Source of the DNA: Serinicoccus profundi
Lineage (GTDB): Bacteria > Actinomycetota > Actinomycetes > Actinomycetales > Dermatophilaceae
DNA length: 64,000 nt
Assembly (NCBI RefSeq): GCF_008001015.1
Contig: NZ_CP042862.1
Span: 1,488,001-1,552,000, forward strand
Direction of reading: 5' to 3'
Positions 1,289-37,770 of this stretch are shown here, in pieces. A model generated the notes under the pieces. It made no database searches. It saw only the letters and a list, made by a program, of their open reading frames with translations, and had not been told where the DNA came from. The first letter of the stretch is position 1; each line of letters opens with the position of its first letter. The translations under genes and the position numbers were made by a program.

Positions 1289-1384
1289 CACGACCCACCG
1301 AGCGTCGCAGATGGTTGCGCCACGACCCACCGGGCGTCGCAGATGGTCGCGCCACGACGCACCGAGCGCCGCAGATGGCCGCGG
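1289..1384 (+). repeat. 32-bp hairpin repeat array A (3 units)
   Basis: Three contiguous 32-bp units (1289-1320, 1321-1352, 1353-1384) without spacers. Each carries the core ACCGAGCGTCGCAGATGG or a close variant (AGCGCC, GGGCGTC). The array lies between the Gfo/Idh gene and the glycosyltransferase gene and ends one base before the latter's start codon. Members of the same family recur at 1539, 20464, 24671, 25337 and 37612. Confidence 0.9.
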
Positions 1385-1385
1385 T

Positions 1386-2678
1386 ATGACTGACCGGGCG
1401 TCGCTCGTGGTTCTCGCGACCCGGATCTACGCCCCCGAGGCGGCGGCCGCGACCTTCCGTCTGGGTGCCCTCGTGCGTTCCCTGAGCCGCCGGGCGTCCG
1501 TGCGCGTGCTCACGACGACGCCTCCGCCCGCACTCCGACAACCATCTGCGACGCTCGGTGGGTCTGAGGGCGACCATCTGCGGCGCTCGGTCGGGGAGGG
1601 GGAGCGCGATCGGGAAGGTCGCTCGGTCGGGGAGGGGGTCTCGGTCGAGTCGGGATCGCCGGACCATCGGGTCGGGGTGAGTCGCTGGCCGGTGCTGCGG
1701 GACGCCACGGGGTATGTCCGCGGCTACCTGCCCTACCTGTCGTTCGACCTGCCGCTCGCGCTGCGGCTGCTGACCGGCCCGCGCCCCGACGTCGTCGTCG
1801 TCGAGCCACCGCCGACCACCGGCGCCGTGACCCGGGTCGCCCTGGCGGTGCGCTCGCTGGGGCGGGCGCCGATCCCCTACGTCTACTACGCCGCGGACAT
1901 CTGGTCCGACGCCACCGCCTCGATGGGAGCCCCACGGGCGGTGGTCTCCCTCATGCGTTCTGTGGAGCGGTTCGCGCTGCGGGGCTCCCGCGACGTGATC
2001 GCCGTGAGCGACGGCGTGGCGCAGCGGGTCCGCGCGCTCGCCGCCGACGTGCCCGTGACCGTTGTGCCCAACGGCATCGACACCGACGTCTTCACCCCCG
2101 TCGGGGAGCGACACCCGCAGGCGCCGATCACGCCCTACCTCGTGTATGCCGGGACCGCCTCGGAGTGGCAGGGCGCCGAGGTCTTCGCCGAGGCGATGGC
2201 CCAGGTCCTCGCGCAGGTGCCGGGCGCGCGCCTGGTCTTCCTCGGGCAGGGCTCGTCCTGGCCGCGGCTGGAGCAGATCGCGGCCGACCTCCCGGACGGA
2301 GCGGTCCAGCTGCGACCGCTCGTCCCTGCGGAGGAGGCGGCTGCCTGGCTGCGCGGTGCGGCGGGTGCCCTGGTGAGCGTGCGACCGGGCGTCGGCTACG
2401 ACTTCGCCTATCCCACCAAGGTCGTCGCGGCGCTGGCCTGCGGGACCCCGGTGGTCTTCGCCGGGCCCGGCCCGGCCGCCGCCGACGTGGGCGAGCACCG
2501 CCTGGGCGCTGCCGTCGACCACGACCCAGAGGCCGTGGCCGCGGCCATGGTGGAGGTGCTGCGCGCCGAGCGCGACGACGACGAGCAGGCTCGCCGGGTG
2601 GCCTGGGTGCGGGAGCACCGCAGCCTGGCCGCGACCGGGGACGGCGCCGCGGCGGTCGTCCTGCGTGTGCCAGGCTAG
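1386..2678 (+). CDS. Glycosyltransferase family 4 protein with in-frame repeat insertion
   Basis: 430 residues from ATG 1386; the frame runs open further upstream through repeat array A, but that stretch is repeat DNA. N-terminal LATRIYAPEAAAATFRLGALVRSL, VYYAADIWSDA, VIAVSDGVAQRV and VPNGIDTDVF are typical of WbuB-like GT4 (GT-B fold) enzymes that move sugars from nucleotide donors to lipid-linked glycans at the cytoplasmic membrane. About residues 50-97 (nt 1533-1675) form a low-complexity insert built from two reverse-oriented 32-bp repeats plus degenerate copies, read as [18 protein letters not shown] and similar. The normal fold resumes at SRWPVLRDATGYVRGY. The insert lies early in the N-terminal half, probably in a surface loop. 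Acceptor and donor sugars cannot be told. Confidence 0.85.
   Translation: MTDRASLVVLATRIYAPEAAAATFRLGALVRSLSRRASVRVLTTTPPPALRQPSATLGGSEGDHLRRSVGEGERDREGRSVGEGVSVESGSPDHRVGVSRWPVLRDATGYVRGYLPYLSFDLPLALRLLTGPRPDVVVVEPPPTTGAVTRVALAVRSLGRAPIPYVYYAADIWSDATASMGAPRAVVSLMRSVERFALRGSRDVIAVSDGVAQRVRALAADVPVTVVPNGIDTDVFTPVGERHPQAPITPYLVYAGTASEWQGAEVFAEAMAQVLAQVPGARLVFLGQGSSWPRLEQIAADLPDGAVQLRPLVPAEEAAAWLRGAAGALVSVRPGVGYDFAYPTKVVAALACGTPVVFAGPGPAAADVGEHRLGAAVDHDPEAVAAAMVEVLRAERDDDEQARRVAWVREHRSLAATGDGAAAVVLRVPG
1539..1602 (-). repeat. 32-bp hairpin repeat B (2 units inside a glycosyltransferase gene)
   Basis: Two 32-bp units (1539-1570, 1571-1602) in the opposite orientation to array A, recognisable by CCATCTGCGACGCTCGGT and CCATCTGCGGCGCTCGGT. 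A further decayed partial copy (GCTCGGTCGGGGAGGGGG) recurs at 1621-1638. All of it is translated as part of the glycosyltransferase reading frame. Confidence 0.9.
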
Positions 2679-2708
2679 AGGTCCGAGGACGTCCGAGGAG
2701 GCATCGCC

Positions 2709-3290
2709 ATGAATCGCTGGGGAAGGCCCGGGGAGCGCCCGGGGGCACCACGTGCCGAGGACGAGCTCCAGGACCAGATCGAGGAGGCCGGTCGCCGCCG
2801 CGCGGAGGGTCCGGGCGGAGCGCGGGGTCTGGCCGGTGCACGGGGTGCCGGAGCGGAACGTCCGCGGCGCCGGCCCTCGGCCTCGACGACGGCCCGGGCC
2901 GTCCAGAGCTGGGTGGACCAGGCCATCGACCAGGCGCAGCGCCAGGGCGCCTTCGACAACTTGCCCGGTGCTGGCAAGCCACTGCGCGACGTCGACACGC
3001 GGGCCGACCCCGACTGGTGGGTCAAGAACCTCATCCAGCGCGAGCAGCTCGACCTCTCCGGTGCCATGCCGGGCGTCATGCAGCTGCGCCGGGAGAAGGC
3101 GACCTATCCGCAGGCGCTCTTCGCGCTGCCCGACGAGGCGGCCGTCCGCGCCCAGGTGGAGGACCTCAACGAGCGCATCCTCGCCGACCGCCGCCGCCCG
3201 CACGTCGGCCCGACGTCGCCCCCGGTCGTCGGACGGCTCGACGTCGAGGAGATGGTGGCCGCCTGGCGCGCCTCGCGCGGCGGGGCCTGA
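2709..3290 (+). CDS. DUF1992 (DnaJ-homologue subfamily C28-like) protein
   Basis: 193 residues from ATG 2709, with GGAGGC 7-12 nt upstream. After a basic, low-complexity N-terminus (to about residue 60) comes the conserved DUF1992 block: WVDQAIDQAQRQGAFDNLPGAGKPL, then a DPDWWVKNLIQREQL segment and VEDLNERILADRR. The family is widespread in bacteria and also occurs in eukaryotic DNAJC28; its function is unknown. No J domain is present here. It is monocistronic and lies just before the thiamine riboswitch. Confidence 0.85.
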   Translation: MNRWGRPGERPGAPRAEDELQDQIEEAGRRRAEGPGGARGLAGARGAGAERPRRRPSASTTARAVQSWVDQAIDQAQRQGAFDNLPGAGKPLRDVDTRADPDWWVKNLIQREQLDLSGAMPGVMQLRREKATYPQALFALPDEAAVRAQVEDLNERILADRRRPHVGPTSPPVVGRLDVEEMVAAWRASRGGA

Positions 3291-3432
3291 CCAGCCCGCA
3301 CTCGTGCCTCTGCTCGTGCGCGACCTCGCGACGGACGCGTGCCTCTGGGCACCGATCTGTCACACGCAGGCGCACGAGAGTGCTCGCAGGAGGGGTATGC
3401 CTCGAGCCCCCGAGCTGCTGCGCTAGCCTGAT

Positions 3433-3513
3433 CGACGACGCGGGGTGCCGCTGTGCGGCTGAGATCACACCCGTCGAACCTGATCTAGCTCGTACTAGCG
3501 AAGGGAACGTCCT
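3433..3513 (+). promoter_or_regulatory. TPP riboswitch (THI element)
   Basis: Shows the conserved THI-box blocks in order: CGGGGTGCC, GGCTGAGATCACACCC, GAACCTGATCTAGCTCGTACTAGCGAAGGGAA. It lies directly before thiM and ends at its TTG start, so the AAGGGAA of the last block probably doubles as the Shine-Dalgarno sequence. That would allow translational repression when thiamine pyrophosphate is bound (inference from geometry). It controls the thiM-thiE-thiD operon. Confidence 0.95.
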
Positions 3514-4320
3514 TTGTCGTCGACGTCGCTCGAACCCACCCATCTCGCCACCTGCTGGGAGCGGGTGCGCACCGACGCACCCCTGGTCCAGTGCCTCACC
3601 AACGTGGTCGCCGCACCGCTGACGGCCAACGTGCTGCTGGCGGCCGGCGCCTCGCCCGCCATGGTCGACAACCCGCACGAGGCCGGGGACTTCGCGGCGG
3701 TGGCCGGGGCCACCCTGGTCAACCTCGGCACCCTGACCGACTCCACCCTCGCCGGTATGCAGGCCGCCGTCCGGGGTGCGGCCGGCGGGGGGACGCCCTG
3801 GGTGCTGGACCCCGTCGCCGCCGGTGCCCTGGGCTGGCGGACGAGGGTCGCCCACGACCTGCTCGCGATGTCTCCCCCCGCAGCGATCCGCGGCAACCCC
3901 TCGGAGATCCTGGGCCTGGCCGGCGGGGCCGGTGGCCGTGGCGTGGACAGCACGGCGGGGCCGGAGGCGGCCCTGAGCGCGGCGTCAGCCCTCGCGCGAC
4001 AGCACGGCTGCGTCGTCGCCGTGAGCGGACCCGTGGATCACCTCGTCGACGCAGCGCGCGTGGTGCGGGTGCCGCACGGCCACCCCTGGATGACCCAGGT
4101 CACGGGGGTCGGCTGCTCCCTCGGCGCGCTCATGGCGGCCTGCCTCGCCGCGAGCGAGGACGCGATGGTGGCCGCGACGACGGCGACCGTGGCCCTCACC
4201 CTCTGCGGCGAGGACGCCGCCGAGGAGGCTGCTGGGCCCGGCAGCTTCGCGACGCACCTGCTCGACGCGCTGGCTTCGCTCACCCCGGAAGCCCTCGCGG
4301 CACGGGTGGAGCTGCGATGA
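3514..4320 (+). CDS. thiM: Hydroxyethylthiazole kinase
   Basis: 268 residues from TTG 3514, the first start after the riboswitch. Phosphorylates 4-methyl-5-(2-hydroxyethyl)thiazole in thiamine salvage. Family blocks are clear: PLVQCLTNVVAAPLTANVLLAAGASPAMVDNP at the N-terminus, WVLDPVAAGAL (about residue 90), IRGNPSEI (about 128) and the nucleotide-site motif TGVGCSLGALMAA with the conserved Cys (about 197). First gene of a thiamine operon; its stop overlaps the thiE start (ATGA). Length is normal for ThiM. Confidence 0.93.
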   Translation: MSSTSLEPTHLATCWERVRTDAPLVQCLTNVVAAPLTANVLLAAGASPAMVDNPHEAGDFAAVAGATLVNLGTLTDSTLAGMQAAVRGAAGGGTPWVLDPVAAGALGWRTRVAHDLLAMSPPAAIRGNPSEILGLAGGAGGRGVDSTAGPEAALSAASALARQHGCVVAVSGPVDHLVDAARVVRVPHGHPWMTQVTGVGCSLGALMAACLAASEDAMVAATTATVALTLCGEDAAEEAAGPGSFATHLLDALASLTPEALAARVELR

Positions 4321-5806: not shown

Positions 5807-5826
5807 CGACCCTGCCCCACGCGCGG

Positions 5827-7047: not shown

Positions 7048-7057
7048 GCCCGCAGCC

Positions 7058-7090
7058 TACGATGGGCGCATGTCGAGGTCGCCCGCGTGA
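7058..7090 (+). promoter_or_regulatory. Leaderless-type promoter and 6-codon upstream ORF before the ABC exporter
   Basis: A -10-like hexamer TACGAT (7058-7063) stands 6 nt before an ATG at 7070. The ATG opens a six-codon frame (MSRSPA) whose TGA (7088-7090) overlaps the exporter's GTG start (7087-7089). The geometry suggests a leaderless transcript with translational coupling through GTGA. The alternative is that the exporter simply starts at an internal codon with no functional small peptide. Confidence 0.4.
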
Positions 7091-18370: not shown

Positions 18371-20442
18371 CCGACGGCGTGGGCTGGGGCTCGGTCGTGC
18401 CCGGGATCCTCGGGCTGGCGATCCTCTGGGTGCTGCCGGGGTATGCCGTGCTCCGCGGCCTGGGTGCGCGGGGTCTCCTCGCGCTCGGCGCGGGTCCGGC
18501 GGTCACCACCGGGCTGGCCGGGGTGCTGGCCATCGCCTACGCCCTCGTGGGGGTGCCGTGGAGCCTGCTGACCTTCGGTCTGGGGGCGCTCCTCGCCGTG
18601 GTGGTGGGCGCGCTGATCGGGGCCGTGCTCGGCACCACCCGGCACCCGTCCGGGGTGACCGTCGCGGGGGAGCGGGCGCTGCGGCATACCGAACGCGGGT
18701 GGTTGTCCCTCACCTGGCTGCTCGGCGGTGGTGTCCTCGCGGCCGCGATGATGACGGGGATGGGGCGGGCCGACCAGCCGCCGCAGGCGTGGGACGCCGT
18801 CTTCCACCTCAACGCGCTGTGGTTCGTGCGGGAGACGGGCGACGCCAGCTCGTTGGGCGGCCTGGCCCCGATGTACGCCGGTAACGCCGAGCCGTTCTAC
18901 CCCGCGGTCTGGCACTCGCTCGTGGCGATCGCCCCGGGTTTCTCCGGCGTCACCGAGGCGGCCAACGCCTCCTCGCTCGTCCTCGGCTCGGTCATCTGGA
19001 TCGCCGGGCTGGTCGCGCTCGCGCGCGTCGTGTGGCCGGCCCGGGCCCTGCCGACGATCCTCGTGCCGGTCCTCGCGGCGACCTACGTCACCTTCCCGGC
19101 GATCGCGGTGTCGATGCTGGCGGTCTGGCCCTTCGCCCTCTCCACCGCCTGTGTGCCGGGCACCATCGCGCTGCTCATCGCGGCCGTCCGCGGCGTGCTG
19201 TCCTGGCGGATGCACCTCGCGCTCGGGATCGGCCTGGCCTGGGCCGTCGCCGGGGTGGTCCTCGCGCACGCCTCGGGCCTGTTCAGCCTCGCCCTGCTCG
19301 CGCTCCCGCTGCTCACCGTGCTGCTCGCCCGCCAGCTGCGTCGGCAGTTCCGCCTCGGTCGTCGGGCGAGCGCCGTGGGCGCCGGGGTGCTCTGGGTGGT
19401 CCTCGTCGCCGGCGCCACCGCCTTCCTGCTCACCTTCCCCCCGGTGCTGGCGATCATGGACTACCGGCGCGGCGGGCAGGACTCCTACCTCCCGGGGATG
19501 GGCTCGCTGGCCATCGACCACCCGCTCATCTACGTCTACAAGATCACCTCGGTCAACCTCGTCACCACCCTGCTCGTCTGGCTCGGGGTCGTCCTCGCGA
19601 TCCGGTGGCGGCACGCGCGCTGGCTCGTGGTGTCGCTGCTGGCCGCCGTGGTTCTCACGCTGCTCGCGGCCGGCCCGCCGGACCAGCCGCTGCGGGTGCT
19701 CGCCGGGTTCTGGTACACCCAGGCCTCCCGGATCAACCAGCTCCTGCTCATCCCGGCCATCCTGCTCGCCGCCGGTGCCGGGGGGTGGCTCGTCGGGCGG
19801 CTCTCGCGCTCCCTGCGGCTGCGGGTGGAGTGGGTCGCCGCCGGGCTCGTCGTCGCCCTCGTCGTCCTGACCTCGGGGCTGCGGTGGACGAGCCAGGTGC
19901 AGGTCATGGCCTCGACCTACACCACCTCTCCCATCGCCTGGGGGACGATCCTGGAGCCCGAGGAGATCGCCATGATCGACCGGGCGGCGCAGACGTTGCC
20001 CGAGGACGCCGTGGTGCTGGGCGAGCCGGTCGCGGGCTCGCCCTACCTGCTCCACCGAGCCGGTATCGACGTCGTCTTCCCCCAGCTCAGCCCGATCCCG
20101 GGCAGCCCGGCACGCGATGTCGTGCTCGACCGCTTCGATGGGTGGGCGAGCGACCCGGAGGTGTGCGAGGCGGTGCGCGAGCTCGGGGTCACGCACGTGT
20201 ATGCCGACTCCCTCACCTTCGAGGACCCCGCCAACGCCAAGTGGGAGGAGACCTCCCCCGGCCTGCGCAACCTCGACCCCGACGGTGGCCACGGCAGCGG
20301 CGCCGACCTCTTGGGCCGTGCCGGCACCGAGGCCACCGAGGAGGCCGAGGAGATCGAGGCGTCCGAGGCGTCGGAAGCTGCGTGGACGCTCCTCGACGAG
20401 GGCGGCCACGCCTCCCTGTGGGAGTTCACCGGCTGCGCCTGA
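18367..20442 (+). CDS. Large multi-spanning membrane protein, DUF6541-like (possible GT-C type enzyme)
   Basis: 691 residues from ATG 18367, overlapping the dehydrogenase stop. About a dozen hydrophobic segments lie between residues 10 and 510. A large first extracytoplasmic-type loop carries QPPQAWDAVFHLNALWFVRETGD and NAEPFYPAVWHSL; an acidic Asp in the first big loop is typical of GT-C enzymes using polyprenyl donors. The C-terminal part (about 515-691) is soluble and contains LEPEEIAMIDRAAQTLPEDAVVLGEPVAGSPYLLHRAG and ends with an Ala/Glu-rich tract. Coupling to the UDP-ManNAc dehydrogenase suggests glycan assembly outside the membrane; this is inference. The stop codon abuts repeat array C. 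Confidence 0.65.
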   Translation: MTDGVGWGSVVPGILGLAILWVLPGYAVLRGLGARGLLALGAGPAVTTGLAGVLAIAYALVGVPWSLLTFGLGALLAVVVGALIGAVLGTTRHPSGVTVAGERALRHTERGWLSLTWLLGGGVLAAAMMTGMGRADQPPQAWDAVFHLNALWFVRETGDASSLGGLAPMYAGNAEPFYPAVWHSLVAIAPGFSGVTEAANASSLVLGSVIWIAGLVALARVVWPARALPTILVPVLAATYVTFPAIAVSMLAVWPFALSTACVPGTIALLIAAVRGVLSWRMHLALGIGLAWAVAGVVLAHASGLFSLALLALPLLTVLLARQLRRQFRLGRRASAVGAGVLWVVLVAGATAFLLTFPPVLAIMDYRRGGQDSYLPGMGSLAIDHPLIYVYKITSVNLVTTLLVWLGVVLAIRWRHARWLVVSLLAAVVLTLLAAGPPDQPLRVLAGFWYTQASRINQLLLIPAILLAAGAGGWLVGRLSRSLRLRVEWVAAGLVVALVVLTSGLRWTSQVQVMASTYTTSPIAWGTILEPEEIAMIDRAAQTLPEDAVVLGEPVAGSPYLLHRAGIDVVFPQLSPIPGSPARDVVLDRFDGWASDPEVCEAVRELGVTHVYADSLTFEDPANAKWEETSPGLRNLDPDGGHGSGADLLGRAGTEATEEAEEIEASEASEAAWTLLDEGGHASLWEFTGCA

Positions 20443-20445
20443 CCC

Positions 20446-20586
20446 ACCGAGCGGACCACCCCGACCGAGCGCCGCAGATGGTCGCTCTCACGCCCACCGA
20501 GCGCCGTAGATGGTCGTACACACCCCCACCGAGCGCCGCAAATGGTCGCCCTCACGCCCACCGAGCGCCGCAGATGGTCGCCCTCA
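20446..20586 (+). repeat. 32-bp hairpin repeat array C (4 units plus a partial)
   Basis: Partial copy at 20446-20463, then units 20464-20495, 20496-20527, 20528-20559 and a truncated unit from 20560. The core is ACCGAGCGCCGCAGATGG with single-base variants (GTAGATGG, GCAAATGG). The array occupies the whole gap between two convergent genes: the TGA of the membrane protein (20440-20442) borders it on one side, and its last CTCA supplies the minus-strand stop codon of nrdB (20584-20586) on the other. Confidence 0.92.
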
Positions 20587-21591
20587 GGAGTCGGCGCGGG
20601 CGTTCACCTCGTAGGAGGTGTTGATCGACTCGAAGAAGTTGACGAGCTGGAGGGTGTCGTTGGCGGTCGCCATCCACTTGGCCGGGTTCGCGACGCCATA
20701 CTCCGGCTCGAACCCGAGCTCCTCGAGCCGCCGGTCGGCGAGGTACTTCACGTAGGTGTTGATGTAGTCGGCGTTGAGCCCGAGGATGCCGGTCGGCAGC
20801 ATCTCGCGGTTGTATGCCTCCTCCAGCTCGACGGCGTGGAGCACCATGCCGCGGATCTCCTCCGCGAACTCCGGGGTCGCGACGTCGGGATTCTCGTCCA
20901 GCACCGTGAGGATGAGGTTGATCCCGAACTTCAGGTGCAGGCTCTCGTCGCGCACGATCCAGTCGATGAGCGAGCCGAAGTTGCGCAGCAGGTTGCGCTG
21001 CCGGAAGCTCAGCGCGACCATGAAGCCGGAGTAGAACCAGATGCCTTCGAGGATGACGTTGTAGGCCACGAGGTTGCGCACGAAGTCCTGCTTGCCCTCC
21101 GTCGTGCCGATGTCGAGCGTCTGCTCGGTCATCCGCCGGATGAAGCGGACCTCGAACTCCTCCTTCGCGGCCATCGAGGGCACCTCGACGTGCGAGTTGT
21201 AGGCGGACTCGCGGTCGATGGGGAAGGTCTCCAGGACATACTCAAAGGCCATGCAGTGGTTGGCCTCTTCCCACATCTGTTTGGCGAGGTAGAGGTGGCA
21301 CTCGGCGGCGTTGACATAGGGGTAGACGCCGAACGCGAGCGCCTTGTTGACGAGCAGCTCGTTGGGGTTGAAGTAGGACATGAGGAAGGTCAGCGCGTGC
21401 CGCTCGTCCTCGCTCATCCGCTCGAAGTCGCCGAGGTCCTCGCCGAGCTGCACCTCGTGGGGGAACCACGTGTTGGCCACGGCCTGGTCGTAGAGCTCCA
21501 TCGCCCAGGGGTAGGTCACCGGCTTGAGCAGCAGGCCTTCCTGGATGCCGGTGCCGAGGATGCTGGTGCGGGTGTCGAGGGTGTCGGTCAT
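20584..21591 (-). CDS. nrdB: Ribonucleoside-diphosphate reductase, beta subunit
   Basis: 335 residues from ATG 21591. Carries the diiron/tyrosyl-radical cofactor for class I ribonucleotide reduction. Iron-ligand helices are visible: EEANHCMAFEYVLE, LEGIWFYSGFMVALSF and VRDESLHLKFGINLIL, with YVKYLADRRLEELG near the C-terminus. It lies 79 bp after nrdA on the same strand and is therefore under the same B12 riboswitch. The TGA stop is part of repeat array C. Partner: NrdA, encoded just upstream. Confidence 0.92.
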   Translation of the reverse strand: MTDTLDTRTSILGTGIQEGLLLKPVTYPWAMELYDQAVANTWFPHEVQLGEDLGDFERMSEDERHALTFLMSYFNPNELLVNKALAFGVYPYVNAAECHLYLAKQMWEEANHCMAFEYVLETFPIDRESAYNSHVEVPSMAAKEEFEVRFIRRMTEQTLDIGTTEGKQDFVRNLVAYNVILEGIWFYSGFMVALSFRQRNLLRNFGSLIDWIVRDESLHLKFGINLILTVLDENPDVATPEFAEEIRGMVLHAVELEEAYNREMLPTGILGLNADYINTYVKYLADRRLEELGFEPEYGVANPAKWMATANDTLQLVNFFESINTSYEVNARADS

Positions 21592-21670
21592 GGGGTCGTC
21601 TCCTTCGGGAGGTCGGGTATGCGGGTCGCTGAGTCGGGGGTCGCCGACAGGATGGTCACTGGCCGGGAGG

Positions 21671-24235
21671 TCACTGGCAGGAGTCGCACTGCAGGCGCTC
21701 CATGGGGTCGATCGGGCACTGCTCGCCGTCGACCTCCTCGACGACCGACAGCGGCATGGGGGTCGACGCAGCCATCGCGGTCGTCGGGGCTGCCGAGGTC
21801 GTCCTCGCGGACGTGGCTCCGAATCCGCGTCGCGGGGCGCCGCCCCCGGTCGGGGTCGACTGGGTCGCCTTGTTGACCTTGACCGTCGACTGCTCGGCGG
21901 TGTGCCGCGGCATCATGTGCAGGTAGTAGGTCGTCTTGACCCCCATCCGCCACGCCGCGGAGTAGAGCTCGGCCATCGAGCCGACATCGCGGCTCGCGAG
22001 GTAGATGTTGCGGCTGATGGCCTGGTCGATCCACTTCTGCGCCCGGGCCGCGACGTGCAAGAAGGCGTAGGGGGAGAGCTGGAAGCTCGTGCGATAGATC
22101 TCCTGCAGCGCGGCCGGCACCCCCTCGACCTTCGACAGGTCGCCCTGGTGACGCAGGAGGTCCTCCCTGACCTGCTCCCACAGGCCGAGCTCTCGGAGGT
22201 CCGCGACGAGGTTGCGGTTGACCTCGAGGAACTTCCCGGCGCTGGTGGCCCGGCTGAAGATCTGGCTGAACTGCGGGTCCAGCCCCGGCGTGGTGCCCGC
22301 GACCAGCCCGATGGAGGCCGTCGGTGCGATCGCCATGAGCGTGGAGTTGCGCAGGCCTTCACGCACCTTCTCCCGCAGGGCGTCCCAGTCCATGCGGGAG
22401 CCGCGGTCGACCTCGACGGTCAGCCCCCGGTCTGCCTCCAGCAGCGCGATCGTGTCGATCGGCACCAGCCCCTGGCTCCAGCGCGACCCCTCGAAGGTCG
22501 GGTATGCGCCCCGCTCACGGGCCAGGTCGGCGCTGGCGTCGATCGCGTGCCAGGAGACGAACTCCACGAGCCTGTCGATGAGGTCGCAGGCCTCGGTCGA
22601 CTCGTAGGACAGGCCCATCCGCTCGACGACGTCGGTGAACCCCATGACGCCCAGGCCCAGGGCGCGGTTCTGCTCGTTGGAGTGCTCCGACTCGGGCACC
22701 GAGCTGATGGTGATGTCGATGAGGTTGTCGAGCTGGCGCACCGCGAGGCGGGTGGAGCGCGCGAGCCGGTCCCAGTCGATGCTCACCTCACCCTGGCTGT
22801 GCCGGCCGTGGACGTGCCGGGAGAGGTTGACCGAGGCGAGGTTGCAGACCGAGACGTTGTCGCGGTCCTGAGGCAGCGTGATCTCGGTGCAGAGGTTGGA
22901 GGAGTGGATCGTCCCGGTGTTGTCGTTGAGGGCACGGGTGTTGATCGAGTCCTTCCACGTCAGCCAGGGGTGGCTCGTCGTCTGGAGCGAGACGAGGATG
23001 GCCTTCCACTGCTCGCGGGCGCGCAGCTTCTTGTGGCGCAGCCCCCCGGCCCGCGCCCGGGCGACGTGGGCGGCATACCGGCGGGAGAAGTCGGCGCCGG
23101 TCGCCTCGACGAGGTCGGGGGTGTCGAGCGGGTCGAAGAGGAACCACTCGTCGTCGGCGGCCACCCGCTTCATGAACTCGTCGCTGAGCCAGACCGCGGT
23201 GTTGGCGGTCCGGGTGCGGCGGTAGGGGTCGCCGGAGTTCTGCCGCAGGTCGAGGAAGCCTGGGAAGTCGAGGTGCCAGTTCTCGAGGTAGAAGCACAGC
23301 GCCCCGAACTTCTTGCCGCCCCGGCTCACGGCGCGCAGCGTCGAGTCGATGGTGTGCATGAAGGGGATGGGCCCGGTGGAGGAGGTGTTGTTGGACCGGA
23401 TGGGGCTTCCCTCGCAGCGCAGCTTGGACACCGACATCCCGATGCCGCCGGTACCCTTGGTCAGCCACATGACGTCGCGCACGCTCTTGGCGATGTGCTC
23501 GATGTCATCCTCCATCTGCATGACGAAGCAGTTCGACAGCTGGCTGTATGCCGTGCCGGCGTTGACCAGGGTCGAGCCGGCGGCGAGGTACTCCAGCCGG
23601 GACATCGCGTCGTAGAACTCGAGCGCGGCGTGGGTCGGGTCGTCCTCGGTGAGCGCCAGGCCCATCGCGACCCGCATCCAGAAGAACTGCGGGGTCTCCA
23701 GGACGGTCCTCGCGGGGTCGGCGTCGGTGAGGGCATACCTCGTGCGCAGGGTCTGGGCGCCGACGTAGCGCAGCAGGTCGTCCCGGCCCGGGTCGAGGGC
23801 CCCGGCGAGGCGCTCGAGGTCGAAGAGCTCGGTGAGCCGCGGGTCGAGGAGCCCGCGCCGCACGCCCTGGGCGACGGCGCCGGGGAAGTACTGCCGGTGC
23901 TTGGCCCGGATGACGTCCGGGTCGTCCTCGCCGAGCAGGTCGCGGGTGTCGCCGAAGACGGCCTTGTACATCGTCTTGACCAGCAGCCGGGAGGCGATGG
24001 TGTCGTAGGCCGGGTCGTCCTTGACGTTCTGCAGCGCGACGCCGATGACGGCCTGGTCGAGCTGCTCGCTGGTGATCCCGTCGAAGAGCGTGATCGCCAG
24101 CTCGGCCTGGAGCTGGGTGCTGCGGAGCACCGCATCCTCCAGCCCCGCGGCCGCTGCCTCGATGGATCGCGCGATCTCGTGCCCGTCGTAGGGCACTGCG
24201 CTGCCGTCGCGCTTGATGACGGTGATGGTGGCCAT
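21671..24235 (-). CDS. nrdA: Ribonucleoside-diphosphate reductase, alpha subunit (class Ia, with ATP cone)
   Basis: 854 residues from ATG 24235. Reduces ribonucleoside diphosphates to deoxy forms. An N-terminal ATP-cone (VIKRDGSAVPYDGHEIARSI) carries the activity site. Active-site residues are seen in LSNCFVMQMEDD (first Cys), SSNLCTEITLP (radical Cys with Asn and Glu) and VCNLASVNL (second Cys). The extreme C-terminus CDSCQ supplies the reducing cysteine pair. The cobalamin riboswitch upstream predicts repression by B12, which is known for Streptomyces class Ia genes when a B12-dependent class II enzyme can take over. No nrdJ is in this window. Confidence 0.93.
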   Translation of the reverse strand: MATITVIKRDGSAVPYDGHEIARSIEAAAAGLEDAVLRSTQLQAELAITLFDGITSEQLDQAVIGVALQNVKDDPAYDTIASRLLVKTMYKAVFGDTRDLLGEDDPDVIRAKHRQYFPGAVAQGVRRGLLDPRLTELFDLERLAGALDPGRDDLLRYVGAQTLRTRYALTDADPARTVLETPQFFWMRVAMGLALTEDDPTHAALEFYDAMSRLEYLAAGSTLVNAGTAYSQLSNCFVMQMEDDIEHIAKSVRDVMWLTKGTGGIGMSVSKLRCEGSPIRSNNTSSTGPIPFMHTIDSTLRAVSRGGKKFGALCFYLENWHLDFPGFLDLRQNSGDPYRRTRTANTAVWLSDEFMKRVAADDEWFLFDPLDTPDLVEATGADFSRRYAAHVARARAGGLRHKKLRAREQWKAILVSLQTTSHPWLTWKDSINTRALNDNTGTIHSSNLCTEITLPQDRDNVSVCNLASVNLSRHVHGRHSQGEVSIDWDRLARSTRLAVRQLDNLIDITISSVPESEHSNEQNRALGLGVMGFTDVVERMGLSYESTEACDLIDRLVEFVSWHAIDASADLARERGAYPTFEGSRWSQGLVPIDTIALLEADRGLTVEVDRGSRMDWDALREKVREGLRNSTLMAIAPTASIGLVAGTTPGLDPQFSQIFSRATSAGKFLEVNRNLVADLRELGLWEQVREDLLRHQGDLSKVEGVPAALQEIYRTSFQLSPYAFLHVAARAQKWIDQAISRNIYLASRDVGSMAELYSAAWRMGVKTTYYLHMMPRHTAEQSTVKVNKATQSTPTGGGAPRRGFGATSARTTSAAPTTAMAASTPMPLSVVEEVDGEQCPIDPMERLQCDSCQ

Positions 24236-24365
24236 GGGTTACCCCTCGTGAACTCGGTCCTGCTGCGGGACGCGCCCGGACCGGCGGGAGGGGGAGGGGT
24301 ATGCCGCGGCCACCGCCTGCGCGGTCGTCGGAGCCAGCCCCAGACCGTCCCTCGCGGTCACGAGC

Positions 24366-24590
24366 CACGGGCACCGTCGGGGCGCCCGTGCACTGGCAGG
24401 TCTTCGGACTCACGGGCGACCGGCTGTCTCGAGGAGACACCCGGGCCTACTGGTCGCGGCTTCCCACACCCGGCAAGGGGCGCAGTGCTGTCGTTGCGAC
24501 GGTCGTTCCCGTTCACCGCTGCGGGGCAGTCCCGGGTTTCCACCGGGTTCCCTCTTGCGACGACCACGGTCACCGGGAGCTCCGAGGACC
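24366..24590 (-). promoter_or_regulatory. Cobalamin (AdoCbl) riboswitch upstream of nrdAB
   Basis: Read on the minus strand the region contains, in order, AGGGAACCCGGTGGAAACCCGGG, ACTGCCCCGCAGCGGTG, a variable middle with GGGTGTGGGAAGCCGCG, and the terminal block GAGTCCGAAGACCTGCCAGTG. These are the hallmark B12-box elements. A stem CACGGGC/GCCCGTG (24366-24390) directly after the B12 box is a candidate expression-platform hairpin. The nrdA start is about 130 nt downstream. Confidence 0.93.
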
Positions 24591-24612
24591 GCAGCCGAAC
24601 CAGCTGCGTGCG

Positions 24613-24644
24613 CCACTATATACAGAAGAATCACACCGATGTAA
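24613..24644 (-). promoter_or_regulatory. nrdA: nrdA promoter with probable NrdR box
   Basis: CACTATATACAG (24614-24625) matches 11 of 12 positions of the NrdR box core CACTATATATAG. On the minus strand TTACAT (24644-24639) and TATAGT or TATATA in the box form a sigma-70-type pair 16-18 bp apart, so a bound NrdR would cover the -10. A second box about 34 bp away (24648-24660) is only weakly similar. Consistent with dual control by NrdR and B12. Confidence 0.55.
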
Positions 24645-24670
24645 CCCCACATCTTGTATCCCGACCCTGA

Positions 24671-24862
24671 CCCCGACCCAGCGCCGCAGATGGTTGCTCT
24701 CACCCCGACCGGGCGTCGCAGATGGTCGTTCTCACCCCGACCGAGCGCCGCAGATGGTTGCTCTCACCCCGACCGAGCGCCGCAGATGGTTGCTCTCACC
24801 CCGACCGAGCGCCGCAGATGGTCGCTCTCACCCCGACCGGGCGTCGCGGATGGTTGCGTCCT
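24671..24862 (+). repeat. 32-bp hairpin repeat array D (6 units)
   Basis: Six exact-period units starting at 24671, 24703, 24735, 24767, 24799 and 24831. The third and fourth are identical. The core is ACCGAGCGCCGCAGATGG; units two and six carry GGGCGTCGC. The array lies between the nrdA promoter region and the nadE promoter, whose -10-like CAGACT starts 3 bp after the array. Pairing of GAGCG with CGCTC or TGCTC (wobble) gives each unit a short hairpin. Confidence 0.92.
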
Positions 24863-24864
24863 GA

Positions 24865-24876
24865 CAGACTGGCCCC
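24865..24876 (+). promoter_or_regulatory. nadE: Leaderless-type promoter of nadE
   Basis: CAGACT (24865-24870), 6 nt, then GTG 24877. The same CAGACT-6-start arrangement is seen before the PPK2 gene at 48865, and CACACT-6-GTG before the ligase gene at 45864. Confidence 0.5.
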
Positions 24877-27021
24877 GTGGACTTCTACAGCGCCTACGAC
24901 CAGGGCTTCGCCCGCATCGCTGCCTGCACGCTGCCGGTCTCGATCGCCGACCCCGCGACCAACGCGACGCGCACCGCCGAGGTGGTCCGCGAGTGCCACG
25001 ACGAGGGGGTCGCGGTCGCGATCTTCCCCGAGCTCGGGCTGTCCGGGTATGCCCTCGAGGACCTGCTGCTGCAGGAGCCGGTGCTCGAGGCGTGCGTCGG
25101 CGCGCTGTGGTCGCTCGCCGAGCAGACGCGCGACCTGCTGCCGGTGGTCGTCGTCGGCGCACCGCTGCGGCACCGCAACCGGCTCTACAACTGCGCCGTC
25201 GTCCTGCACCGCGGCGAGATCCTCGGCGTGGCCCCGAAGTCCTACCTGCCGAACTACCGCGAGTTCTACGAGAAGCGCCACTTCGCCGCCGGCGCCGGCA
25301 CCGACGGACAGACCATCCGGCTCGCGCGGCCGGAGACGACCATCCGCGACGCCCGGTCGGTCCAGGGGCAACCATCTGCGACGCCCGGTGGGGCTGAGGG
25401 CGACCATCTGCGACGCTCGGTGGGGGAGGTGGAGGTGCCGTTCGGGCCCGACCTGCTCTTCCGCGCCGTCGACGTGCCGGGGCTGGTGCTGCACGTCGAG
25501 GTCTGCGAGGACGTCTGGGTGCCCGTGCCGCCCTCGGCCGAGGCGACCCTCGCGGGAGCGACCGTCGTCGCCAACCTCTCCGGCAGCCCGATCACCGTCG
25601 GCAAGTCCGCCCAGCGGCACAACCTCACCGCCGAGGCGAGCTCGCGGATGCTCTGCGCCTACGCCTACGCCGCCGCGGGGGAGGGTGAGTCCACCACCGA
25701 CCTGTCCTGGGACGGCCAGACGATGATCCACGAGCTCGGCGAGCTGCTGGCCGAGTCCGAGCGCTTCGCCGCCGGTGCCCACCGCAGCGTCGCCGATGTC
25801 GACCTCGTCCGCATCCGCGCCGACCGGGCCCGCCAGGGCAGCTTCGACGACAACGCCCTCGCCCTCGGCGAGCGCCTCTCCCGCTTCCGCACCATCGACC
25901 TCGTGCTCGACCCGCCCCGGAGCGACATCGGGCTCCGCCGGGTCGTCGACCGCTTCCCGTTCGTGCCCGACGACCCAGCGCTGCTCGCCCAGGACTGCTA
26001 CGAGACGTTCAGCATCCAGGTCAGCGGCCTCGCGCAGCGGCTCGCCGCGATCGGCGACCCCAAGGTCGTCATCGGTGTCTCGGGCGGCCTCGACTCGACC
26101 CAGGCGCTCATCGTCGCCGCCCGGGCGATGGACCGCGCCGGCCGCCCGCGCAGCGACATCCTCGCCTTCACCATGCCCGGCTTCGCCACGAGCGAGCACA
26201 CCAAGGACAACGCGACCGAGCTCGCGACCTCCCTCGGCGTGACCTTCGAGGAGATCGACATCCGGCCGATGGCCCGGCAGATGCTCGAGGACCTCGGCCA
26301 CCCCTTCGCCGGTGGTGAGCCGGTCTACGACGTCACCTTCGAGAACGTCCAGGCCGGGCTGCGCACGGACTTCCTCTTCCGCGCCGCCAACCAGCGCGGC
26401 GGCATCGTCCTGGGCACCGGCGACCTCTCCGAGCTCGCGCTCGGCTGGTGCACCTACGGCGTGGGTGACCAGATGTCGCACTACACCGTCAACTCCGGTC
26501 TGGCCAAGACCCTCATCCAGCACGTCATCCGCTGGGTGGTCGGCGAGGGGATGTTCGACGCGCGCACCGGCGAGGTGCTCACCTCCATCCTCGACACCGA
26601 GATCACCCCCGAGCTCGTGCCGGCGGGCGAGGACGGCAAGGTCCAGTCCACCCAGGACACGATCGGCCCCTACGAGCTCCAGGACTTCACCCTCCACCAC
26701 GTCATCCGCTTCGGTATGCCGCCCAGCCGGGTGGCCTTCCTCGCCTGGCACGCGTGGCGGGACGCCGGGGAGGGGCCGTGGCCTCCGGGGTTCCCCGAGG
26801 AGGGCCGCAACGCCTACGACCTGGCGACGATCCGGCGCTGGCTCATGCTCTTCGTCGAGCGCTTCTTCGCCTTCAGCCAGTTCAAGCGCTCGGCGCTGCC
26901 CAACGGGCCCAAGGTGTCCTCGGCCGGGGCGCTGTCGCCGCGCGGCGACTGGCGCGCGCCCTCGGACGCCAACGCCCGGGTGTGGCTCGCCGAGCTGGAG
27001 GAGCACGTCCCCCGCGCCTGA
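24877..27021 (+). CDS. nadE: Glutamine-dependent NAD+ synthetase with in-frame repeat insertion
   Basis: 714 residues from GTG 24877. The N-terminal nitrilase-fold glutaminase domain (about 1-300) has the Glu in [10 protein letters not shown], the Lys in [17 protein letters not shown] and the nucleophile in [10 protein letters not shown]. The C-terminal ATP-pyrophosphatase domain has the P-loop [12 protein letters not shown] (about residue 397) and [23 protein letters not shown]. It amidates deamido-NAD in the last NAD step. Residues about 154-185 (nt 25337-25432) are 96 bp of three reverse 32-bp repeats, translated in frame between TIRLARPET and [11 protein letters not shown]. Without it the length and motif spacing would fit the family well. 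It is probably tolerated in a surface loop before the catalytic Cys strand. Confidence 0.92.
25337..25432 (-). repeat. 32-bp hairpin repeat E (3 units inside nadE)
   Basis: Units 25337-25368, 25369-25400 and 25401-25432 in reverse orientation (CCATCTGCGACGCCCGGT and variants). Three units equal 96 bp or exactly 32 codons, so the nadE frame is kept. The translated segment reads [18 protein letters not shown] in its second half, almost the same peptide as in the glycosyltransferase at 1386. Confidence 0.93.
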
Positions 27022-27120
27022 GTGCCGCGCCCGAGGATCCCTCACCGCCATCGGTCCTGTCCGCATACCGTGCGGTCGGCGGGCAGGATGCCCGCAGCCG
27101 CGCCGGTCGGGGGCTCTCGT

Positions 27121-31527: not shown

Positions 31528-31528
31528 G

Positions 31529-32314
31529 TCAGCCCACCCACTGGCCGCGCTCGGTCAGGACGTCCTTGAGCAGGTCGGCGCGGTCGGTCATGATCCCGTC
31601 GACCCCGAGGTCGAGCAGGCGGTGCATCTCCACCGGGTCGTTGATGGTCCAGACGTGGACGAGCTTGCCGATCTCGTGTGCCGCGGCGAGCGTCGTCGGC
31701 GTGACCACCTCGAGGCCGTGGTGCTGGGGTGGCACCTGCAGCGCATCGACCGAGCGCAGCGCCCGCGCGGCGACGGAGGCCCGGATGAGGTGCGGGAGCT
31801 CGGCCGCGGCGCGGAAGGACGCGGTGCTGCGCTGCCCGGCCGAGGTCGCGACGGGGCGGGTCAGCCTCATGACGGCGGCGTCGCGGCGCTGGTCGGAGAA
31901 GCTGGTGACGCAGACCCGGCCGTGGGCCTTGGTGCGCTCGATGACCTGCACGAGCGGCACGATCGCCCCCGGCGTCTTGATGTCGATGTTGACGCGCACG
32001 TCCGGGAAAGCCCCGAGGAGCTCCTCCAGCTGCGGCACCGGCTCCTGCCCGGCGATGAGGGCCCGCGAGACCTCCCTCCAGGACAGCTCGGGGATGGCTC
32101 CGCGGCGGTCGGTGACGCGGTCGAGGGTCTCGTCGTGGAAGGCGACGACCACCCCGTCCCGCGTGGCGTGCACATCGGTCTCGACGTAGCGGTAGCCCAG
32201 CTCGACGGCGGCAGCGAAGGCGGGCATGGAGTTCTCCAGCCCCGCCCCGGTCGGGTCGAACCCCCGGTGAGCCATGGCGATCGGACCAGGGTGGTCCAGG
32301 TATGGCGTGCGCAC
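31529..32314 (-). CDS. Glycerophosphodiester phosphodiesterase
   Basis: 261 residues from GTG 32314. TIM-barrel GDPD family: AMAHRGFDPTGAGLENSMPAFAAAVELGYRYVETDVHATRDGVVVAFHDETLDRVTD contains the catalytic His-Arg, Glu, Asp and second His. VNIDIKTPG and VHVWTINDPVEMHRLLDLGVDGIMTDRAD complete the fold. Hydrolyses glycerophosphodiesters to an alcohol and glycerol-3-phosphate. There is no signal peptide, so it is probably cytoplasmic. Convergent with cysJ; 1 bp separates the stop codons. Confidence 0.92.
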   Translation of the reverse strand: MRTPYLDHPGPIAMAHRGFDPTGAGLENSMPAFAAAVELGYRYVETDVHATRDGVVVAFHDETLDRVTDRRGAIPELSWREVSRALIAGQEPVPQLEELLGAFPDVRVNIDIKTPGAIVPLVQVIERTKAHGRVCVTSFSDQRRDAAVMRLTRPVATSAGQRSTASFRAAAELPHLIRASVAARALRSVDALQVPPQHHGLEVVTPTTLAAAHEIGKLVHVWTINDPVEMHRLLDLGVDGIMTDRADLLKDVLTERGQWVG

Positions 32315-32340
32315 GATCCGAGCGTACTGGCTCGGGACCG

Positions 32341-33159: not shown

Positions 33160-33237
33160 ACACCCAGCGTAGTGCTGCTCTGTTGCCCCACGTTGCGCCG
33201 AGATGACCGGCCGGTGTCCGGCATACCGGAGCAGCCG

Positions 33238-34038: not shown

Positions 34039-34039
34039 C

Positions 34040-35569: not shown

Positions 35570-35582
35570 CCCACGAGTGTAG

Positions 35583-35598
35583 ATCACATATATGAGAT
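35583..35598. promoter_or_regulatory. Palindromic operator candidate for the XRE-MurA gene
   Basis: ATCACATATATGAGAT is a 16-bp palindrome except for one mismatched pair (A/A at the fourth position from each end), strikingly AT-rich in this GC-rich DNA. It ends 13 bp before the gene's ATG and includes TATATG-like -10 sequence. The downstream gene encodes an XRE domain, so autoregulation is a direct inference. Confidence 0.55.
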
Positions 35599-35681
35599 AT
35601 GCCTGGGAGGACGACACCCGCGGCGTCGGGGTGGCGGGCATCCCCGGCGTTGCGCTCCGGCGGCGGAGCGGACCCGCACCC

Positions 35682-35693
35682 TAGGCTGGAGGG
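35682..35693 (+). promoter_or_regulatory. Leaderless-type promoter of the DUF3000 gene
   Basis: TAGGCT (35682-35687), 6 nt (GGAGGG), then GTG 35694. Confidence 0.45.
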
Positions 35694-36338
35694 GTGGTGA
35701 GCCGGATCTCCGACCAGCGGCCGCGGCGTCGCGCCGCGGCTGACTCCGCTGCGCCGGACGCCGGGGTCTTCCAGCGGGCGCTCGACGGTATCAGGGGTGC
35801 CCAGCTGCGACCGGAGATGGTGCTCGAGGAGGTCCCCGCCCCCACGCGCCTGGCCCCGCACGCCGTCGCCCTCTCCGGCGAGGTCATCCCCTCCCGGTTG
35901 GAGGACGAGGACGACCCCATCGCGACGGGCCGGTTCGTCGTCCTGCACGACCCCGAGGGCCCGGAGCCCTGGGAGGGCACGTGGCGGGCCGTGACCTACG
36001 CCAAGGCCCAGATGGAGCCCGAGGTGGGCCACGACCCCCTGGCCGGACAGGCCGGCTGGTCCTGGCTCACGGATGCGCTCGACCAGGCCGAGCTCGGCTG
36101 GACCGCGGCCGCCGGCACCGTCACCTGCGTGACCTCGGAGAGCTTCGGGGCCCTCTCCGACCGCGAGCCCTCCGTCGAGCTGGAGATCCGCGCCTCGTGG
36201 ACCCCGGTCCTCAGCGAGGGCGAGGAGGCCAGCGAGATGGCCGCCCACCTCGGGGCCTGGGCCGACCTGCTCTGCACGCTGGCGGGCCTGCCACCGCTGC
36301 CCGAGGGTGTGGTCGCTCTGTCCGGGGTCCGTCGCTGA
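35694..36338 (+). CDS. DUF3000 family protein
   Basis: 214 residues from GTG 35694. Contains the actinobacteria-specific DUF3000 pattern: FQRALDGIRGAQLRPEMVLEEVPAPTRLAPHAVALSGEV, ATGRFVVLHDPEGPEPWEGTWRAVTYAKAQMEPEV and PSVELEIRASWTP. Soluble, no catalytic motif evident, function unknown. It stands 1 nt before the RNase D gene, an arrangement common in actinobacteria, so the two are likely co-transcribed. Confidence 0.85.
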   Translation: MVSRISDQRPRRRAAADSAAPDAGVFQRALDGIRGAQLRPEMVLEEVPAPTRLAPHAVALSGEVIPSRLEDEDDPIATGRFVVLHDPEGPEPWEGTWRAVTYAKAQMEPEVGHDPLAGQAGWSWLTDALDQAELGWTAAAGTVTCVTSESFGALSDREPSVELEIRASWTPVLSEGEEASEMAAHLGAWADLLCTLAGLPPLPEGVVALSGVRR

Positions 36339-36339
36339 G

Positions 36340-37605
36340 ATGAGCACCGAGCACACCGACGAGGATCCCGGGGCCGACTTCGAGCGGCTGGAGGCGCCGC
36401 CCGAGGGGGTTCCCGCCGTCGTCGACACCCCCTCCGGGCTGGAGGAGGCGCTCGCCGCCCTGGCCGGTGGCGTGGGGCCGGTCGCCGTGGATGCCGAGCG
36501 GGCCTCCGGCTACCGCTACGGCCAGAAGGCCTACCTCGTGCAGCTGCGGCGCGAGGGCGCGGGCACCTGGCTCATCGACCCCGTGCCCTTCGAGGACCTC
36601 CGTGCCCTCGACGAGGCCCTGGCGAGCACCTCGTGGGTGCTGCACGCGGCCACGCAGGACATCCCCTGCCTGGCCGAGCTCGGCCTGCGGCCCCGCGCGC
36701 TCTTCGACACCGAGCTCGGGGCCCGGCTCGCCGGTCTGCCCCGGGTCGGACTCTCCGCGGTGCTGGAGTACTACCTGGGCGTGACGCTGGCCAAGGAGCA
36801 CTCGGCCGTGGACTGGTCGACCCGGCCGCTGCCCGAGCCGTGGCTGCGCTACGCCGCCCTCGACGTGGAGCTGCTCGTGGAGCTGCGCGACCGCATGGAG
36901 CGCGACCTGCGCGAGCAGGGCAAGCTCGACTGGGCCGAGCAGGAGTTCGCGGCGCTGTGCGAGTTCACCGGCCCGGCCGGGAGCGAGGAGCCCGAGGCGT
37001 GGCGCCGGACCACCGGCGTGCACCGGCTCCGCAAGCGTCGCTCGCTCGCAGCGCTGCGCGAGCTGTGGCAGACCCGCGACACGATCGCCCAGGAGCGGGA
37101 CGTCCCGCCCGGCCGGGTGCTGCCCGACGGCACCCTGCTGGACCTCGCCCAGCGCATGCCCCGGCAGGCGGCCGCGCTGGGCTCGGAGCGCAAGGAGAGC
37201 TCCCGGACCCGTCAGCGACGGGCCGAGCAGGGTCTCCTGCGCCACCAGCGGGCCTGGCTCACCGCCATCCGGACGGCGGCGGAGCTGGACGAGGAGGAGC
37301 TGCCCGAGCCCTCCCGACGCGGCGACACCCCACCCCCGCCGCGGGCGTGGGCCGAGCGCGACCCCGAGGCGGCGGAGCGCCTGACCCTCGTGCGCGCGGC
37401 CCTGGCCGAGCTGTCCGAGCGGCTCGAGATCCCGGTGGAGAACCTCATGACCCCCGACGTCGTCCGCCGGGTGCTGTGGACGCCGCCGGAGGAGCGGACC
37501 GCTCAGGCGGTCGACGAGCGGGTCGCCGAGCTCGGTGCCCGCCCCTGGCAGCGCGAGCTGGTCGTGCCGATCCTCGTGCACGCCCTGACGACCCAACCCT
37601 CCTGA
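36340..37605 (+). CDS. rnd: Ribonuclease D-like 3'-5' exonuclease with HRDC domain
   Basis: 421 residues from ATG 36340. The DEDD exonuclease domain (about 20-200) shows VAVDAERASGYRYGQKAYLVQL (Asp-x-Glu), VLHAATQDIPCLAELGL (Asp) and the last acidic motif YAALDVELLVEL. The C-terminal part (about 215-320) contains an HRDC-like segment (RRSLAALRELWQTRDTIAQERDVPPGRVLPDGTLLDLAQRMP). Trims structured RNA 3' ends. The stop is followed within a few bases by repeat array F. Confidence 0.88.
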   Translation: MSTEHTDEDPGADFERLEAPPEGVPAVVDTPSGLEEALAALAGGVGPVAVDAERASGYRYGQKAYLVQLRREGAGTWLIDPVPFEDLRALDEALASTSWVLHAATQDIPCLAELGLRPRALFDTELGARLAGLPRVGLSAVLEYYLGVTLAKEHSAVDWSTRPLPEPWLRYAALDVELLVELRDRMERDLREQGKLDWAEQEFAALCEFTGPAGSEEPEAWRRTTGVHRLRKRRSLAALRELWQTRDTIAQERDVPPGRVLPDGTLLDLAQRMPRQAAALGSERKESSRTRQRRAEQGLLRHQRAWLTAIRTAAELDEEELPEPSRRGDTPPPPRAWAERDPEAAERLTLVRAALAELSERLEIPVENLMTPDVVRRVLWTPPEERTAQAVDERVAELGARPWQRELVVPILVHALTTQPS

Positions 37606-37611
37606 CACCCC

Positions 37612-37770
37612 ACCGAGCGCCGCAGATGGTCGCTCTCACCTTCACCGGGCGTCGCAGATGGTCGCGCTCACGCTCACCGGGCGTCGCAGATGGTCGCTCT
37701 GGCCCTCACCGAGCGTCGCAGATGGTTGCTCTCACCCTGACCGGGCGCCGCAGATGGTCGCTCTCAGCGG
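37612..37770 (+). repeat. 32-bp hairpin repeat array F (5 units)
   Basis: Units at 37612, 37644, 37676, 37708 and 37740 (the last cut short), cores ACCGAGCGCCGCAGATGG and ACCGGGCGTCGCAGATGG. The array fills the gap between convergent genes: RNase D ends at 37605 and the final CTCA contains the minus-strand stop codon of hemE (37764-37766). Same geometry as array C. Confidence 0.92.

Follow-up and report, generated by a model that had tools for sequence, protein, structure and literature searches.

Six arrays of a 32-bp unit

The window analyzed here, a stretch of 64,000 nucleotides of Serinicoccus profundi (contig NZ_CP042862.1, positions 1,488,001 to 1,552,000), carries six tandem arrays of a short repeat with a unit length of 32 bp. 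An earlier note on this sequence had described about 23 units at six loci, and a screen allowing up to three mismatches indeed found 23 cores, compared with 0.33 expected in shuffled sequence (largest value 2). Tandem-repeat analysis gave a period of 32 for the window arrays, the two-unit array at 1539 being too short for a row of its own. The arrays are as follows:

A1, 1291..1410, plus strand: three full units (1297, 1329, 1361) and a degenerate fourth (1393-1410)
A2, 1539..1595, minus strand: two units within a glycosyltransferase frame (1407-2678), facing A1
A3, 20457..20586, plus strand: four units that occupy the intergenic space of a convergent gene pair
A4, 24670..24857, plus strand: six units, flanked by a minus-strand cobalamin riboswitch and by the NAD synthase gene
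A5, 25336..25425, minus strand: three units opposed to A4, in the part of the NAD synthase gene (24877-27021) that encodes CN_hydrolase
A6, 37606..37766, plus strand: five units between the convergent genes for an RNase D-like exonuclease and uroporphyrinogen decarboxylase

A1 is located between a Gfo/Idh/MocA oxidoreductase gene and the glycosyltransferase gene, and its degenerate fourth unit includes the likely GTG start of the latter. The convergent genes around A3 encode a DUF6541 protein and the ribonucleotide reductase small chain. Placement both between and inside genes had been noted before and is borne out by A2, which lies in the open glycosyltransferase frame, and by A5, which is in frame within the NAD synthase gene. 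Being on the minus strand, A2 and A5 turn 1289/1539 and 24671/25337 into facing pairs. The cobalamin riboswitch (Rfam) occupies 24395-24574 on the minus strand, upstream of the ribonucleotide reductase large-chain gene (21671-24235, minus strand), and A4 starts about 100 bp from it. Degenerate tandem-like places (31529-31594 here, others in the relatives G004, G016, G012 and G013) were not counted as arrays.

An alignment across ten genomes shows a directional unit of the form CCCACCGRGCGYCG-NNNN-TGGTTGC plus spacer. The end bases of CCCACCGRGCGYCG merge into a variable tetramer at unit positions 12-15, followed by TGGTTGC and a C-rich spacer of 8-10 bp. Spacers are alike within each array; a clustered regularly interspaced short palindromic repeat (CRISPR) array, with its unique spacers, was rejected for this similarity and for the 8-10 bp length. 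We measured the distances between same-strand units with at most two mismatches and no more than 62 bp apart in the ten genomes. The distance is 32 bp in 459 of 506 cases, 33 bp in 37 and 31 bp in five, and the remaining five are 22, 26, 37, 48 and 48 bp. The unvarying period claimed earlier therefore holds for the window, where every distance within an array is 32, but not for the family at large. One unit spans about three helical turns, as had been suggested, and this spacing is kept although, at any one site, the spacers of different species are only about 54% identical.

Neighboring arrays on opposite strands tend to face each other. In this genome (G000) the plus-then-minus order was found for all 12 opposite array pairs within 30 bp and for 23 of 28 within 1300 bp. 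Across the ten genomes 27 plus-minus junctions have a gap of ≤24 bp, 12 of them at 11-14 and 15 at 20-24 with none at 15-19, and three longer gaps (44, 55, 58) occur among those listed; minus-plus junctions number only two, both in G003. The two gap classes are separated by about one helical turn, with a vector strength of 0.82-0.83 for periods of 10-11 bp. With 501 of 506 same-strand distances at 31-33 bp and junction gaps of 11-14 or 20-24 bp, the arrays show the helical phasing expected of protein-binding arrays.

Single units contain no conserved hairpin. The stem proposed in the earlier note, GAGCG with CGCTC, did not survive the covariation check suggested with it: in 62 tandem pairs from ten genomes 79.4% of cells were paired versus 80.0% after shuffling, with a covariation score of 0.175 versus 0.182. 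Position 5 varies independently of position 23 (A with T in 129/487, G with T in 90/299), an alternative four-pair ACCG/TGGT stem showed no change on both sides, and RNAalifold gave no base pair with a compensatory change. Single units (40-base units, 40 from each of five genomes) fold with a z of about 0 against shuffles on both strands. Strong folding is limited to facing pairs (z -5.1, n=15), where it is a necessary result of the inverted repeat. At the gathering score the arrays have no match in Rfam, and a structured RNA family was rejected on the combined lack of covarying structure, fold excess and Rfam match.

Spacer follows the site, tetramer follows the genome

We compared the corresponding places in eight relatives; against positions 20000-27100 of the window, the longest matching piece of each has 84-88% identity. 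The A6 place carries an array in seven of the eight, in decayed form in G012, while G003 has none. Its tetramers differ from genome to genome: CAGA five times here, CGAA three times and CACC in G027, TGAA three times and CGGA in G020, CGGA and CGAA in G004, CGAA, CGCA and TGAA in G028, CCCA in G016, and CTCG and CCTG in G013. Unit number at one site varies as well. Arrays at the A1 and A2 places are also present in G013, G020, G027 and G028, with a less clear case for A1 in G003, and reading by eye places an array of the G030-form unit before the same glycosyltransferase start in G030. At the A4 place arrays were found in G004, G016 and G020, and in G027 as judged by one flank.

The comparison of syntenic loci with and without arrays, proposed in the earlier note, proved informative for A3 and A5, which among the nine genomes compared are occupied only here and in G027. 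The A3 array of G027 is interrupted by the contig end; the seven other relatives lack units, and their place is taken by different sequence or, as with the 16 bp in G020, by next to nothing. The A5 units are likewise common to this genome and G027 and missing from the same seven. Both arrays were therefore either gained in the line leading to this genome and G027 or lost in the others. The A3 gap of G003, G004 and G028 holds different short repeats of the CCTGTGCAC and GTGCACAGG types.

We then compared unit identity in three classes, namely same genome but other site, same site but other genome, and neither. Terminal units were excluded from all tetramer and spacer tests because their "spacer" is flanking sequence. 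For the four window sites (internal units, 22 arrays, 50 units) tetramer identity was 0.727, 0.430 and 0.449 in the three classes, a clear effect of genome (p 0.0012) and none of site (p 0.40). Identity of spacer positions 23-30 was 0.467, 0.568 and 0.446, with the effects reversed (genome p 0.15, site p 0.0012). A set of 24 site clusters with 76 arrays gave the same picture, with 0.731, 0.446 and 0.418 for the tetramer (genome p 0.0005, site p 0.12) and 0.466, 0.538 and 0.459 for the spacer (genome p 0.28, site p 0.0005), and the pattern is also present without G000. As cluster number 3 of this set chains several places, per-position and strict-orthology tests were made as a check.

The per-position test covered 66 arrays, 22 sites and 181 units after two suspect site clusters had been dropped. 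Within the tetramer the genome share was 0.31 at position 12 and 0.72, 0.57 and 0.79 at positions 13, 14 and 15; two other variable positions, 5 and 9, had shares of 0.18 (p 0.03) and 0.06 (p 0.06). Synchrony extends to positions 6, 10 and 11, which rarely vary, and is not significant at position 20 (p 0.13). Most G000 stretches and loci L060-L073 had been selected by a CAG-containing core, which favors CAGA, and many other loci of relatives by a pattern with position 15 fixed as A. With orthology defined strictly by two flanks, the tests were run on four sets: all loci (98 arrays, 33 sites), without L060-L073 (87, 30), without L060-L073 and G000 (46, 16), and the window with its orthologous stretches only (25, 5), the last two being included because of these selection biases. 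The genome effect on the tetramer and the site effect on the spacer hold in all four. At positions 13-14 the genome effect has a p of 0.0003 in the window with orthologous stretches and of 0.0033 without L060-L073 and G000.

At orthologous array sites, then, the spacer follows the site and the central tetramer follows the genome. It follows that the arrays are largely inherited in place while their center turns over in step. The spread in trans envisaged earlier is thus only part of the picture: some whole units are common to dispersed loci and A3 and A5 are restricted in range, but many arrays are old residents of orthologous sites.

Distribution in the genome and the genus

The family extends far beyond the six loci to which the earlier note had assigned it, although all six exist, and its dispersed nature was confirmed at the scale of the whole genome. 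The exact core ACCGRGCGYCGCAGATGG occurs 132 times on the forward and 108 times on the reverse strand of the 3,475,711-base one-contig genome, 240 in total, with none for the reversed control; a looser core pattern gave 155 and 136. In 47 stretches of G000 (581,744 bases), picked around known arrays and including the window, we identified 88 arrays with 312 units, each made up of one to eight units. Gene contexts rest on our own gene calls, which misfile at least A2 as outside genes. According to these calls the flanking genes are convergent for 29 arrays, tandem for 43 and divergent for 10, and six more arrays lie within genes; the background in the same stretches is 89 convergent, 319 tandem and 86 divergent gene pairs. 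Convergent pairs are thus enriched (29/82 intergenic arrays versus 89/494 gene pairs). Between tandem genes 22 arrays are oriented along the upstream gene and 21 opposite to it, and 34 of the 82 intergenic arrays begin ≤30 bp after a same-strand stop codon. Of the six in-gene arrays, four include distances divisible by three (33 or 48 bp), A5 keeps 32, and the last consists of one unit only; 33-bp distances are also found in five arrays outside called genes. A composite place, unlike plain arrays, was seen at about 621,260-621,680 of the genome, where three single units stand amid longer repeats with GGTATGCCG and GGATCCGTAC.

Among 31 genomes of the genus at least 13 have matches to a sequence-only model of the unit (R1) at E≤0.001, a lower bound since the filters lose some weak matches. 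Outside the genus three of 155 family genomes gave one weak match each. Every named record with two tandem units comes from Serinicoccus (three stretches from two genomes, records near the window's own perhaps being omitted). Within the searches made the family was found only in this genus. G007, G023 and G030 carry arrays at a 32- or 33-bp period with a shifted core of the ACCGAGCGCGYNNNGTGG types, among them a 32-bp array of G023 (L212). A second 32-bp array of G007 (L211, 360-435) retains ACCGAGCGCG and has no TGG block, which suggests a further subtype with the same period. Apart from G000 and G013, a three-unit pattern matched four of 394 genomes in the order, in unrelated sequences, and these matches are taken as chance because the reversed control also matches one genome. 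At this chance level, two 32-bp tandem arrays of G487, from another family of the order, start with ACCGAGCG and ACCGGGCG/ACCAGGCG and are otherwise unrelated (L235, L240). Viral contigs gave no match to the two-unit pattern, and phages and plasmids none to array A4. No published description was found in the literature searched, which excluded most subscription papers.

A separate motif, the 8-mer GGTATGCC, occurs 858 and 837 times on the two strands of G000, compared with 13 and 11 for its reversed control. GGTATG[AC]C is present in all 47 stretches, and 418 of the 573 GGTATG there lie within called genes. In ten sampled genomes of the genus GGTATGCC has a density of 42-77 per 100 kb, and in many, though not all, of 119 genomes of the family it is well above control. 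For an actinobacterium, it has the look of a DNA-uptake-sequence-like or Chi-like motif. As a part of the 32-bp element it was rejected for want of a clear enrichment at the ends of arrays: 20 of 200 array-end 60-mers contain GGTATG or CATACC, versus 140 of 1870 control 60-mers.

Possible explanations and known systems

We give an even chance to a reading, drawn from sequence comparison, in which the units are helically phased tandem binding sites on double-stranded DNA for a putative trans-acting factor with a species-specific tetramer dialect. A sequence-specific factor would bind units set three helical turns apart, and the blocks CCCACCGRGCGYCG and TGGTTGC would frame the tetramer (positions 12-15) that it reads, leaving the 8-10 bp spacer unread. 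Opposite arrays face each other at gaps differing by about one helical turn. Arrays would grow and shrink in place, with tandem duplication or slippage as the probable route, and now and then one would appear at a new site; the protein or other factor bound to them would co-evolve with the tetramer. The fold z of about 0 and the unbiased orientation between tandem genes suggest an element acting as DNA rather than RNA. As to its role, our guess is DNA organization or the absorption of supercoils near convergent genes, for which enterobacterial interspersed repeats are a model.

Several observations weigh against this reading. The analysis brought up no protein that binds the arrays. The 32-bp spacing could partly be a legacy of tandem duplication. 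R1 has no match in 18 of the 31 genus genomes (its filters lose weak matches), so the arrays are dispensable in parts of the genus. Without G000 and the CAG-selected loci the genome excess is 0.28 at positions 12-15 versus 0.19 at positions 5 and 9, and this weaker contrast leaves room for gene conversion limited to the core. Three of the four strict sets also reveal a slight dependence of the tetramer on site (0.07-0.13, p 0.008-0.015). Some of the 27 junctions involve weak units, two 21-bp junctions (G020, G027) look like one place in two genomes, and identical tails at dispersed G000 loci show some whole-unit copying.

The strongest competitor is a selfish or neutral satellite, which we consider possible though rather less probable. 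Here slippage, ectopic recombination and genome-wide gene conversion limited to a 22-24 bp core would let the tetramer drift as one population and leave non-homologous spacers behind, and the 32-bp register would be kept because only in-register arrays can pair. Identical 14-nt tails at different loci of G000 (115 pairs versus a Markov-null mean of 14, largest 29) fit such copying, although the pairs are not independent because arrays repeat their own tails, and so does one 32-mer present at six loci. Also consistent are the A1 edge unit, which retains a form (CTCG) other than that of the inner CAGA units and does so in G027 as well, the variable copy number at one site, the 18 genomes without a match, and the synchrony of positions 5 and 9 once G000 is left out. 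In the full set, however, positions 9 and 5 are hardly synchronized, with shares far below those of positions 13-15 and two and six bases separating them from the tetramer, and a satellite alone leaves the two junction classes and the scarcity of minus-plus junctions unexplained. Wholesale replacement of units does not fit either, since the tetramer differs between genomes everywhere together while the spacers are local. Four features make us favor a read binding site over the satellite: units spaced by helical turns, junction gaps in two classes, a one-sided order at the junctions, and synchrony that is weaker at positions 5 and 9.

A non-autonomous element resembling repetitive extragenic palindromes (REP) or bacterial interspersed mosaic elements (BIME), moved by a REP-associated tyrosine transposase (RAYT) or another IS200/IS605-type transposase, is improbable and largely refuted. 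The arrays are dispersed, mainly extragenic (82 of 88 outside called genes) and enriched between convergent genes, and facing pairs form strong palindromes. Yet single units are not palindromic, and the RAYT-like partner whose search the earlier note had recommended did not appear: Y1_Tnp (PF01797) is present in none of the 31 genus genomes, while the control was positive in 5 of 14. Facing junctions do occur here (27 at gaps ≤24 bp), but same-strand neighbors greatly outnumber them (506 distances), and such head-to-tail order is given as absent, under-represented or negligible in the REP families treated in PMC3733652. Among 541 called proteins we found four paralogue pairs, one of them two neighbors of a single array in L056, and no gene family recurring beside several arrays. 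Reverse transcriptase PF00078 was detected in 7 of the 31 genus genomes, not in G000, and of the 13 array-bearing genomes only in G003 and G008; copying by reverse transcription was rejected for its absence from G000 and most array-bearing genomes.

Transposon ends, modeled on the rows of transposase-binding sites at Tn7-like ends, would consist of inward-facing rows of sites whose tetramer co-evolves with the transposase. The plus-minus order of neighboring array pairs within 1.3 kb (23/28) and the 46 of 88 arrays with a facing partner at that distance speak for such ends, but 42 of 88 have none, no gene family recurs beside several arrays, and A1/A2 and A4/A5 enclose ordinary gene sequence that is present with or without arrays in relatives, so that we think this hardly probable. 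Least probable is a conserved hairpin (small RNA or DNA) with a terminator or stabilizer role in transcripts: single sequences are able to fold and many arrays begin shortly after a stop codon, but the missing covariation, the fold z of about 0 on both strands in five genomes, the even orientation between tandem genes and the lack of an Rfam match already refute a single-unit hairpin, allowing at most a side effect of facing pairs.

Intergenic TAACTGA repeats of Beggiatoaceae have a 7-bp unit with one sequence in several phyla and, in the first genome described, mostly point towards a start codon (PMC4679880). They share with the 32-bp arrays the many intergenic sets, the two to six direct repeats and the lack of an evident transfer mechanism. 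REP/BIME repeats with RAYT (TnpAREP) resemble them in hundreds of dispersed short copies, extragenic bias, enrichment between convergent genes and facing pairs; in contrast, the units described here are directional and non-palindromic, follow one another mostly head-to-tail every 32 bp, and no transposase of the Y1 type was found with them. REP/BIME repeats are said to be binding sites of several host factors (PMC2817692). CGTC-tagged REPs, including neisserial dRS3, are described as palindromes with 8-9 bp stems in which head-head dimers predominate and head-tail ones are negligible; like our family they are dispersed, partly in genes, and presented with no dedicated transposase (PMC3733652). 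The 32-bp family differs from them by its head-to-tail rows and the lack of a stem.

A palindrome together with a RAYT-type enzyme accounts for interspersed repeats like REP, and the 32-bp family shows neither. Yet orthologous sites keep their arrays, whose central sequence is replaced. Mycobacterial interspersed repetitive units, roughly 50-100 bp each, likewise form dispersed intergenic tandem rows of variable copy number, but we know of no genome-wide tetramer turnover in them. Since positions and spacers are local and the tetramer is genome-wide, co-evolution of reader and site can be tested directly, and related species, with their differing tetramers, offer a ready specificity assay for finding the reader. 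DNA uptake sequences have a trans-acting reader behind their dialects; they are single short motifs of higher density, unlike the phased tandem arrays described here. For Neisseriaceae such dialects are documented (PMC3630211), and the likeness lies in a dispersed motif population with species dialects. Tentatively, and with less confidence than in the binding-site reading itself, one may think of a chromosome-wide code, in which hundreds of phased DNA-organizing arrays would have their tetramer rewritten species by species by a fast-evolving reader, either a protein or a guide RNA. If true, this code would be a bacterial counterpart of co-evolving site and reader pairs such as the uptake-sequence dialects.

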